34,819 nucleotides of DNA, taken from assembly GCF_000429525.1 (NCBI RefSeq), contig NZ_AUCA01000034.1:1-34819 (forward strand), read 5' to 3'. Both the position numbers and the translations under genes were made by a program. The notes under the pieces were generated by a model. The model made no database searches and was not told where the DNA came from. It saw nothing but the letters and a program-made list of their open reading frames with translations. Every line of letters begins with the position of its first letter. Position 1 is the stretch's first letter. Below, piece by piece: positions 783 through 3,206 of this stretch. The DNA is from Alicyclobacillus contaminans DSM 17975 (GTDB lineage Bacteria > Bacillota > Bacilli > Alicyclobacillales > Alicyclobacillaceae).

Positions 783-1100
783 CTACTTCAGGACGGTCCC
801 GCTCAGCAAAATGGCCGGACCGGACGCCGCTTGTAGCAAAGGACGAGTGGCCGCCAGGGTGGATTCCACGGTATTGGCCTCCAGAATGGCTTCCAGCACA
901 ACCGGCGGATGCTCAGAGAAGGAGAACAAATGGGCTTTGTGGATGACATGTTCTTGACCGAATCCCTCCACAGCGCGCTGCACGTCCACCCAGATGACAT
1001 GGTGGTTTTTCAGTGCCTGCAACATGGCCTCGTAGAGGGGCGTATGATGGTATTTGTCGTCCTCTTTCATGTACACCTTGAGAATGTGTCCTGAAGGCAT
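783..1100 (-). CDS. DUF190 family protein (second of a tandem pair)
   Basis: This 105-residue protein has the DUF190 pattern: a first beta strand ILKVYMKEDDKY, then PLYEAML, a segment ending VEGFGQEHVIHKAHLFSFSE, and a PPVVLEAI strand. DUF190 proteins are small alpha/beta proteins with a GlnB-like fold and no established biochemical activity. They are often encoded next to crcB genes, which fits the fluoride riboswitch upstream here. The ATG at 1098-1100 lies inside the end of the preceding DUF190 gene (34-nt overlap) and is preceded by AAAGGGG, so the two are translationally coupled. The pair share fold and length but differ clearly in sequence. The function is unknown; a regulatory or sensing role is only a guess from the fold. 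Confidence 0.75.
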   Translation of the reverse strand: MPSGHILKVYMKEDDKYHHTPLYEAMLQALKNHHVIWVDVQRAVEGFGQEHVIHKAHLFSFSEHPPVVLEAILEANTVESTLAATRPLLQAASGPAILLSGTVLK

Positions 1101-1447
1101 ATTCGGGTCCCCTTTCCATTCGCCTGTTTCAAATCATGGACATCTGGAATCACAAGCAGACGGGAGGATTTGGGTAAATGGGTGGAGAGCTGGGCGCACA
1201 TCTGCTGTATTTCTGCCTGCAATCCAAAGACCTCCATCGTAATGGGTAGGTTATTGGACGCGTACTCAAAATAGAGGTTCTGAAAGTGTCCGTGTACATC
1301 CAGCCCTTCTTCCGCGCGAAAAACGGTGATGCCGGGCGCTCCACTTTGCCAGAGGTAGCGCACGATATCCTGGTATGCCGTGCGTGCGGACCACTTTGTC
1401 CTGTCGCTTTCATAGAGACGAATCACAAGGAGTGCGCTCTTTTCCAT
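1067..1447 (-). CDS. DUF190 family protein (first of a tandem pair)
   Basis: This 126-residue DUF190 protein shows the strand ALLVIRLYESDRTKW, the helix around AYQDIVRYLWQSGAPGITVF and the family-typical RAEEGLDVHG. These are followed by NLPITMEVFGLQAEIQQM, corresponding to the PxVIEIVDxEE part of the family. The ATG at 1445-1447 is preceded by GGAGGAGG, which overlaps the enolase stop codon region (13-nt gap), so it is expressed with enolase. Its 3' end overlaps the next DUF190 gene. It is part of the fluoride-controlled operon beginning at the riboswitch near 3250. The biochemical role of the family is not known. Confidence 0.72.
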   Translation of the reverse strand: MEKSALLVIRLYESDRTKWSARTAYQDIVRYLWQSGAPGITVFRAEEGLDVHGHFQNLYFEYASNNLPITMEVFGLQAEIQQMCAQLSTHLPKSSRLLVIPDVHDLKQANGKGTRICLQDTFSRCT

Positions 1448-1460
1448 AGGGCCTCCTCCT

Positions 1461-2753
1461 TCATTGTTTCTTTGACGCTTTTTGGTACACGCCTGCGGCC
1501 AATGGAGCATCCGGGAACGTTTCCTGCAGACGCAGCAATTGGTTGTACTTCGCCACGCGTTCACCGCGGGCGGGGGCACCGGCCTTCATTTGGCCAGCGG
1601 CCGTTGCCAAGGCGAAATCCGCAATGAACGCGTCGTCCGTCTCGCCGGATCGGTGAGAAACCACCGTCTTGTATTGATGTGCGCGGGCCAAACGCATGGT
1701 TTCCAAGGTTTCCGTAACGGTGCCGACCTGATTTAACTTGATGAGAATCGCGTTGGCAATTCCCTGGTCGATGCCGCGCTGAAAGATGTTGGCATGGGTC
1801 ACGAAAATGTCATCACCGACACACTGAATGCCGTTTTCATTCAATGCCTTGGTATGTGTCTCCCATCCCTGCCAGTCGTATTCCGAAAGTCCGTCCTCAA
1901 TGGAGACAATGGGAAACTGTTGGGCCAATTGCAGACAGTAGGCGGTCATTTCATCCGACGTCCAAGTGTGCCCCTCGAACAGGTAATGGCCATCCTGATA
2001 AAAATCATTTGCGGCAAAGTCCAAGCCCAGCGAAATCTGTGCGCCTGGAATGTAACCGGCTTGTTCAATGGCAGCCACCAGCAGTTCGAGTGCCCCCTCC
2101 GTCGTTTTTAGTTGTGGAGCAAAGCCCCCTTCGTCGCCAATGGCCACTCGAAATCCTTTCGACTCCAAGAGCAGGCGCAATGCTTGGTACGTCTCTGCAC
2201 CCATGCGAATGGCATCAGAGATGGTGTCAGCACCGTGGGGAATCAACATAAATTCTTGTGTGGATACGCCTGAATCTGCGTGCTTTCCACCGTTGATGAC
2301 ATTCATCATGGGAACGGGAAACACGAGTTTCTCAGTCTCGTAGATACTGGCGATAGACTGAACCAACGAGCACTTCTTAGAAACCGCAGCAGCGCGGGCG
2401 AAGGCCATGGAACACCCAAGAATGGCATTCGCCCCAAGACGGTGTTTGTCCATCGTCCCATCCAAATTCGTCAAATAGCGGTCGAACGCTTCTTGACTGT
2501 CGAAATCGCACCCCTGTACAGCACGGGCGATGGTGCCCTGTACATGCTGGACCGCACCCAATACCCCTCTGCCACGGAATCGAGTTTTATCTCCGTCCCT
2601 CCATTCCACTGCTTCTTTGCTGCCAGTGGATTTTCCGGATGGGACGGATGCGCGCCCACAAGCCCCATCGGTTAACTGCAATTCCACTTCCAATGTGGGG
2701 AGGCCGCGGGAATCCAAGATTTCTCGAGCTTTCAACGCAAGTATCTTCGCCAT
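1461..2753 (-). CDS. eno: Enolase (phosphopyruvate hydratase), fluoride-operon copy
   Basis: A full-length enolase (430 residues) converting 2-phosphoglycerate to phosphoenolpyruvate in glycolysis, cytosolic and Mg-dependent. Visible family signatures are LGANAILG, PVPMMNVINGG, GDEGGFAP, the metal ligands in LGLDFAAND and SIEDGL, the catalytic lysine in ILIKLNQVGT, and SHRSGETDD and AKYNQLLR. Two normally near-invariant places beside the active site differ: the SGASTG loop reads SGKSTG (Lys41) and DSRGNPT reads DSRGLPT (Leu18). GGEHA reads GGKHA. The ATG at 2751-2753 is preceded by AGGAGG. A longer in-frame start upstream overlaps the preceding gene and lacks a ribosome site. Enolase is strongly inhibited by fluoride plus phosphate, and enolase is a known member of fluoride-riboswitch regulons. 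This is therefore probably an inducible, perhaps fluoride-tolerant, second enolase rather than the housekeeping copy; the tolerance is inference. Confidence 0.93.
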   Translation of the reverse strand: MAKILALKAREILDSRGLPTLEVELQLTDGACGRASVPSGKSTGSKEAVEWRDGDKTRFRGRGVLGAVQHVQGTIARAVQGCDFDSQEAFDRYLTNLDGTMDKHRLGANAILGCSMAFARAAAVSKKCSLVQSIASIYETEKLVFPVPMMNVINGGKHADSGVSTQEFMLIPHGADTISDAIRMGAETYQALRLLLESKGFRVAIGDEGGFAPQLKTTEGALELLVAAIEQAGYIPGAQISLGLDFAANDFYQDGHYLFEGHTWTSDEMTAYCLQLAQQFPIVSIEDGLSEYDWQGWETHTKALNENGIQCVGDDIFVTHANIFQRGIDQGIANAILIKLNQVGTVTETLETMRLARAHQYKTVVSHRSGETDDAFIADFALATAAGQMKAGAPARGERVAKYNQLLRLQETFPDAPLAAGVYQKASKKQ

Positions 2754-2782
2754 TGCAGGTACCTCCTTGGTTAAGCATCGTT

Positions 2783-3136
2783 TCAAAGAGAGCGCCGAAA
2801 AGTGCGGCAACACAACCAAGCGGCAAAGCCACCGCAGAGGTTGTACAGCAGTAGAACAACCAGCCAGCCAGTCCATGTGACGGAGGATTCACGAAAGAAA
2901 ATTTGCGCTATTTCGTAGCTAAGGATGTATATGTTGGACAACGGTATGCCTGCGATGGTGCCCCATTTCACGCTGTTCACCCTGCGACAAACCCAGAGGC
3001 TGCTCAGCAATAAAACCGCCGACCACAGGTACACCTGAATACTTGGTCCCAGTCGCGTGGCACTCTCCATACCTGTAAGTATGCCAATGGGCAACATCAT
3101 GGCCAGCGACGAGAATACACGTTTCGACGGCGCCAC
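2783..3136 (-). CDS. Small four-helix membrane protein, possible diverged CrcB/Fluc fluoride channel
   Basis: This 117-residue protein has four hydrophobic segments, at about 9-28, 32-50, 57-80 and 87-108, which is the size and layout of CrcB/Fluc. The segment GTIAGIPLSNIYILSYEIAQ sits where Fluc proteins have G-x-x-G-G-x-T-T-F-S-T-F-S-x-E. The glycine, the serine and the glutamate line up, but the two pore phenylalanines are replaced by Ile and Leu, and the helix-2 Asn is not seen. The GTG start (3134-3136) is chosen because GGAGG lies 11 nt upstream. It is the first gene after a fluoride riboswitch and is followed by enolase, the position where crcB is normally found. That context is the main support. 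It could instead be an unrelated small membrane protein recruited to the fluoride operon. Confidence 0.5.
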   Translation of the reverse strand: MAPSKRVFSSLAMMLPIGILTGMESATRLGPSIQVYLWSAVLLLSSLWVCRRVNSVKWGTIAGIPLSNIYILSYEIAQIFFRESSVTWTGWLVVLLLYNLCGGFAAWLCCRTFRRSL

Positions 3137-3156
3137 CTTATGCTCTTCCTCCTTTC

Positions 3157-3206
3157 AAAAAGAAAGGCTCCTACGGACAAACTGATGACAGTCAACCGTA
3201 GGAGCC
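3157..3206 (-). terminator. Intrinsic terminator, expression platform of fluoride riboswitch 2
   Basis: GGCTCCTACGG (complement of 3196-3206) pairs perfectly with CCGTAGGAGCC (complement of 3166-3176), followed by TTTCTTTTT. The first arm is the 3' strand of the aptamer, so ligand-bound aptamer and terminator exclude each other. Confidence 0.9.

Follow-up and report, generated by a model that had tools for sequence, protein, structure and literature searches.

A putative orphan membrane protein at the crcB place of a fluoride riboswitch operon in Alicyclobacillus contaminans

Two types of bacterial fluoride exporter, Fluc and CLC-F, are described (PMC11139923), and Ec2 is described as requiring F80, F83 and N41 (PMC5636608). 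Eukaryotic FEX, a Fluc in which one pore is vestigial, is a precedent for a chain of Fluc origin that has lost pore residues (PMC5417652). In Enterobacter cloacae FRM, a fluoride riboswitch operon has the order ppaC-uspA-eno-gpmA-crcB-orf5249 (PMC5533749). Here we analyze a locus of Alicyclobacillus contaminans DSM 17975 that lies in a window of 34,819 nt (the whole stretch of DNA analyzed). As in E. cloacae FRM, a fluoride riboswitch drives an extra enolase and a membrane protein gene; however, the membrane gene there is CrcB and here appears to be an orphan, and the companions here are DUF190 genes. The protein is similar to Fluc/CrcB, above all to the heterodimeric kind encoded by crcB-a/crcB-b pairs, in that it is a small, probably multi-helix membrane protein of ~120 aa whose gene is first behind a fluoride riboswitch and upstream of DUF190. 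Unlike Fluc/CrcB, it is encoded by a single gene rather than a pair and has no PF02537 match, no TTFSTFS motif and no helix-2 Asn motif.

The open reading frame had been pointed out in an earlier note, made from the letters alone, as a gene of CrcB-like size and the first behind a fluoride riboswitch. Its coordinates were exact; the frame is on the minus strand, and its 117 codons give a product close to the ~120 aa of Fluc. A ribosome-binding site, AAAGGAGG, lies ahead of the GTG start. The gene is indeed the first behind an RF01734 aptamer, and RNAfold of positions 3212-3137 yields a structure of -32.7 kcal/mol with an outer stem of 11 bp, the terminator ahead of the gene (Table 1). The gene order behind this riboswitch is the 117-aa gene, eno, DUF190 and DUF190, with 29 bases between the 117-aa gene and eno. 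The genome has another enolase (C9:41047-42306) that is 53% identical to the enolase of the window, and the latter is therefore regarded as an extra copy under the riboswitch. The third-position G+C of the 117-aa gene (0.63) can be set beside that of eno (0.59) and the DUF190 genes (0.58/0.69). These riboswitch operon values (0.58-0.69) compare with 0.70-0.76 in the six other non-TerC genes of the window that were examined, and the lower third-position G+C of the operon genes (783-3136) may reflect transfer.

Table 1. Features of the riboswitch operon and its surroundings (positions within the window)
Feature	Position	Strand	Basis
Fluoride riboswitch aptamer, RF01734	3254-3192	minus	50 bits (gathering score 34), E 3.8e-11; covers the whole model, 1-64
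Riboswitch terminator hairpin, GGCTCCTACGG...CCGTAGGAGCC, with T-rich tail	3157-3206	minus	RNAfold
Putative orphan small membrane protein, 117 aa	3136-2783	minus	ORF and RBS, GTG start
Second enolase, eno	1461-2753	minus	TIGR01060, 540.7 bits
DUF190 protein, first copy	1067-1447	minus	PF02641, E 3.3e-12
DUF190 protein, second copy	783-1100	minus	PF02641, E 1.1e-20
Second, weak fluoride aptamer	637-703	minus	33.5 bits, gathering 34, E 2e-06
Truncated TerC-like gene, 97 aa	303-596	minus	PF03741, E 6.5e-4, 19.9 bits vs cut-off 27.8

The second, weak aptamer, which comes with a strong hairpin and a T-run at 653-612, precedes the TerC-like gene shortened to 97 aa. Over its first ~80-90 residues this gene is 32-55% identical (27 rows) to genes that relatives have in their riboswitch loci, where TerC-like first genes form a cluster of 17 with lengths of 179 to at least 215 aa. 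Beyond it, positions 231-1 on the minus strand encode what we take to resemble the start of a transposase. Elsewhere, the genome has two canonical adjacent crcB pairs, C12:35623-36356 and C19:63055-63797; the C12 pair has its own riboswitch (55.3 bits), and the C19 locus showed none. Since these two pairs are retained, the 117-aa protein would add to Fluc and not be its replacement in the cell.

To determine how the product relates to Fluc, we compared it with profiles of CrcB. PF02537 (CRCB) gave no match to the 117-aa protein at E<=10, and a six-frame CRCB search of the genome gave no PF02537 row on the contig of the window at the same threshold. The pore phenylalanines, two in the helix-3 TTFSTFS segment of Fluc, and the helix-2 Asn were described as not conserved in the earlier note and are indeed absent: the sequence has no TTFSTFS-like motif and no Fluc helix-2 motif, and predicted helix 2 (31-53) is free of Asn. 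The proposed correspondence of an S-x-E segment (SYE, residues 73-75) with the Fluc TTFSTFSxE region is not supported, as the profile comparisons place no such alignment and the homologue described below has THG there. CrcB HMMs built from 84 family proteins, of which 38 are 'a', 40 are 'b' and 6 are single-gene, scored the gene at about 4 bits or less and in the wrong register. In the profile-profile comparison that the note had called for, the gene and its homologue, paired or single, were set against four CrcB sets in 12 comparisons, and Hhalign returned probabilities of just 0.1-4.7%. As a control, CrcB pairs sharing 18-30% identity were drawn at random and each compared with a CrcB subgroup containing neither member of the pair; all 25 pairs scored at least 97.96%. 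PF02537 was still matched, with E values no higher than 1.4e-9, by five divergent single-gene CrcB-like proteins whose genes follow fluoride riboswitches (four come from the six-member single-gene HMM set, the fifth from G026), and because all five do so we see no gradient towards the 117-aa protein. Single divergent CrcB-like genes of this sort, with their own fluoride riboswitch and apart from the usual crcB pair, were observed at six loci (L060, L092, L068, L128, L131 and L139), and by eye the loop between helices 1 and 2 is shortened in their products. A profile made of just two sequences, the gene product and its homologue, found no Fluc or FEX in the PDB, its sole match being NuoK at E 0.82, below any cut-off. 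In contrast, a two-sequence CrcB control profile found 16 distinct CrcB sequences and a FEX1 entry (E 3.3e-5). FEX, a two-domain protein (PMC5417652), is thus found by a CrcB profile of that depth, whereas the profile of the present family finds none. A frameshifted crcB was ruled out, the best score in six frames of 2700-3200 being 3.8 bits, and DNA similarity of the gene to the riboswitch loci was limited to short matches of E 0.78 and above.

A faint resemblance to CrcB-b was nevertheless seen. Residues 30-107 of the gene product align with CrcB-b residues 4-81, out of register, at a raw score of 58, compared with a mean of 43.7 +/- 5.7 for decoys made of 300 membrane-protein segments, of which 4 (1.3%) reach 58. 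When phmmer was run against 4666 frames that extend from stop to stop over at least 60 aa, the best two matches outside the family were also CrcB-b (E 0.052 and 0.22); a fragment of another fluoride-regulon protein is ruled out, as nothing in these frames save the homologue matched below E 0.05. Shuffle z-scores of the gene against 40 CrcB-b proteins averaged 1.28 (local) with a maximum of 4.97 (100 shuffles each), and against the C19a CrcB of the genome itself the value was 3.27 (3/300 shuffles). For the homologue, the mean local z against CrcB-b was -0.13 and the maximum 2.39. We provisionally take the resemblance, of which the homologue shares little, to be most likely chance.

AlphaFold, given the two-sequence family alignment, placed helices at residues 5-28, 31-53, 56-81 and 88-116, in line with the four helices of the earlier reading, but at a pLDDT of just 57.7 and a pTM of 0.41. 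The hydropathy of helices 1 and 3 is only moderate. We consider the product probably a four-helix membrane protein, and the charge pattern suggests an N-in/C-in orientation. A true CrcB modelled with a two-sequence alignment, taken from a real CrcB pair of one viral contig, reached a pLDDT of 53.2 and a pTM of 0.33. Foldseek found no match of the family model at E<=0.001, and the CrcB control model was likewise without a significant PDB match. VIA-align 2 matched the family model to, among others, helical bundles and ABC transporter membrane parts, with Z < 9 throughout; for the CrcB control model, no Fluc was among the 50 matches listed. Because the control modelled as badly, the structure result is used neither for nor against the Fluc fold, which has four helices with a break in helix 3 and forms an antiparallel, dual-topology dimer.

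No other family accounted for the gene. Pfam and NCBIfam contain no family that it matches at or above the curated cut-off; in NCBIfam, TIGR04086 appeared at E 1 for the gene and nothing for the homologue. A VanZ-like match (PF04892) reached 13.2 bits, where the cut-off is 30.1, and was without counterpart in the homologue, and a BrkB match (E 0.0023) was seen with the homologue only, below cut-off; the weak BrkB and VanZ matches are thus not common to both members in Pfam. The CLC domain has ~400 residues with signature motifs. A CLC-F antiporter was rejected for a gene of only 117 aa for which Pfam, searched at E<=10, lists no CLC family. PHROGs and PADLOC gave no match at E<=1, plasmids none for gene or homologue at E<=1, and viral contigs no members. 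Among the 41 genomes of the family, matches came from the genome itself, from Alicyclobacillus ferrooxydans TC-34 (G018) and, weakly (E 0.0094), from within an ORF that is transporter-like by eye; among the 59 of the order there were two, the genome itself and G018. With the threshold at E<=0.01, the 398 genomes of the class gave, besides this genome, two weak matches below 19 bits, and the 398 of the phylum, searched with the homologue, gave three besides this genome, likewise weak. Relaxing the threshold to E<=1 brought in 131 genomes of the class and 90 of the phylum; we take these matches as noise because the best other score is 20.9 bits, compared with 208 bits for the gene itself, and many are in long or stop-broken frames. 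Seven weak small-frame matches and one further locus (L148) showed no Rfam family at the gathering threshold. A pattern scan of the genome contigs returned one locus, that of A. ferrooxydans.

The sole homologue found is thus a 126-aa protein of A. ferrooxydans TC-34 (L012:4995-5375), ~25% identical over residues 6-107 with one single-residue gap. None of 2000 shuffles, run within 8-residue windows so that the hydropathy profile was kept, reached the observed score (z 11.3, local). Conserved positions include W38 (predicted helix 2), S46, T60, G63, S67, I69, Y70, T87, G90, W91, Y98, N99 and W107. The homologue has no Fluc motifs and scores no better than the gene against CrcB. It is preceded by genes for a formate-dehydrogenase-like molybdopterin oxidoreductase, a protein we take to be DUF1641-like, FdhD and a PF03458 protein, presumably TRIC-like. 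No recognizable fluoride aptamer was found at this locus. A terminator tail of the fluoride-riboswitch type, CTCCTGTGG...CCGTAGCAGCCATTTTTT, ends ~25 bases ahead of the ATG of the homologue. With at most one mismatch, the tail GTAGGAGCCATTTT occurs 38 times in 1,107,434 bases, counting both strands of a set that is self-overlapping in places and enriched for riboswitch loci. A pattern match shows the aptamer 3' end in 20 of the 38; inspection by eye assigned a further 12 to CTCCTGC/CTCCTGT-type terminators and 3 to riboswitches read in reverse. One (L081) lies ~50 bases upstream of an aptamer, and two rows are the same A. ferrooxydans place. Another genome, G019, has an fdhD 98% identical to that of the homologue locus, but its DNA identity ends close to where the PF03458 gene terminates (3' end), and the homologue was not found in that genome. 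Given this break and the terminator tail, the homologue segment looks to have arrived, or to have been lost, along with part of a fluoride riboswitch. Fluoride control would be historical at best in A. ferrooxydans, since the gene is without a recognizable aptamer and follows formate dehydrogenase genes.

We also assessed what usually stands behind fluoride riboswitches in this family, in which summed rows give 139 such places in 39 of the 41 genomes. We examined 135 of them; the four not included were the window's own pair and a further pair located where a contig of G031 begins. The order riboswitch, crcB-a, crcB-b, DUF190, DUF190 is present at five loci in five other genomes (G021:C27, G022:C23, G027:C69, G030:C1 and G032:C2). 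Because the crcB pair lies between the riboswitch and the DUF190 pair in these relatives, the 117-aa gene occupies a crcB slot. This pattern is not uniform: a DUF190 gene directly follows the riboswitch, without crcB, at G036:C29, and the DUF190 genes are opposite the riboswitch, on the other strand, at G022:C35. Among first genes picked heuristically behind 134 riboswitches, some of them in wrong frames, 52 match the CrcB HMM and 82 do not; the picks also include clusters of 24 (from 381 aa, at least 9 helices), 17 (TerC-like), 10 (257-326 aa) and smaller ones. In a tblastn search behind the 135 riboswitches, nothing like the gene or its homologue was found at E<=0.01. At several loci of the cluster of 10 (L054, L083, L085, L095, L096 and others), the riboswitch stands before operons of multi-helix subunits, which we take to resemble formate hydrogenlyase/complex-I-like membrane subunits. 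At seven loci (L054, L083, L098, L099, L100, L102 and L119), two to three tandem fluoride aptamers lie ahead of one gene.

Based on these results, our main reading, to which we give a probability of roughly 0.55, is that the gene belongs to an orphan, fluoride-switched family of ~120-aa, probably four-helix membrane proteins that by sequence is not Fluc. Of the two readings that the earlier note had left side by side, the evidence favors a different small membrane protein family at the crcB place. The other, a Fluc that tolerates far more change than thought, has no significant sequence support; the fold leaves room for it, as the structure test did not recover a true CrcB used as positive control. 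No confident match to another family was found, which together with a fold unlike Fluc was to have counted against the note. A Fluc diverged beyond sequence recognition, perhaps the pore-dead partner of an ordinary CrcB in the manner of the vestigial half of FEX, would explain why size, riboswitch and operon slot equal those of crcB pairs. Pore decay is described for heterodimeric Flucs (PMC5636608) and for FEX (PMC5417652), and the weak, out-of-register match to CrcB-b would fit as well. However, profile tests of strong power were negative, the homologue at ~25% identity is no closer to CrcB, and the five divergent single-gene CrcB-like proteins all match PF02537; we consider such a Fluc unlikely.

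Less improbable, although still rather unlikely, is a fluoride-induced membrane protein without fluoride transport, such as an accessory in balancing protons or ions, or one that assists the enolase or DUF190 products. The host already has two crcB pairs, the homologue lies in a formate dehydrogenase operon, and 82 of the 134 heuristic first-gene picks, not all of them correct, fail to match the CrcB HMM; all this is consistent with the idea. Na+/H+ antiporters are described as the next commonest riboswitch-associated class after exporters (PMC11139923). Against it stands the position, which is the place of crcB pairs before DUF190 pairs in five relatives, and there is no pointer to any specific alternative activity. 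A decaying or spurious ORF could be suspected from a family of just two known members ~25% identical and from the truncation of the adjacent TerC-like gene. That explanation is very improbable: the gene has an RBS and is tightly packed in its operon, the frame is intact in both species at 25% identity, the third-position G+C of 0.63 resembles that of the operon genes, and the six frames of 2700-3200 hold no crcB signal above 4 bits.

With the gene taken as a member of an orphan membrane family, support of fluoride tolerance is the best reading of its role. Fluoride would enter as HF, F-Mg would bind the aptamer and the terminator would not form; the 117-aa protein would then be made together with the second enolase and the two DUF190 proteins. 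The second enolase would serve as a spare copy of a fluoride-sensitive enzyme, and the 117-aa protein would supplement the two ordinary Fluc pairs of the genome. As its most likely biochemical role we speculate that the protein might be an oligomer that releases fluoride from the cell or in some other way eases HF/F- stress on the membrane, a plausible guess that stays doubtful even if the rest holds. From the two sequences we would guess S67, Y70, Y98 and N99, hydrogen-bond donors shared by both members, as candidate pore or functional residues, and these might suit an anion path. A third kind of bacterial fluoride exporter, independent of Fluc and CLC, of ~120 aa with different residues and replacing the crcB pair in the operon, is a more distant prospect that we hold to be unlikely.

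In titles and abstract openings, which cover subscription journals and bioRxiv thinly, no unrelated small membrane protein at the crcB place came up. A membrane protein in the crcB slot that by sequence is neither Fluc nor CLC-F would be a direct and inexpensive test case for a further type of exporter or, alternatively, for how far Fluc drifts. If accessory only, it would still add an unannotated family to the fluoride response, and it may be an unrecognized part of fluoride survival in some bacteria.
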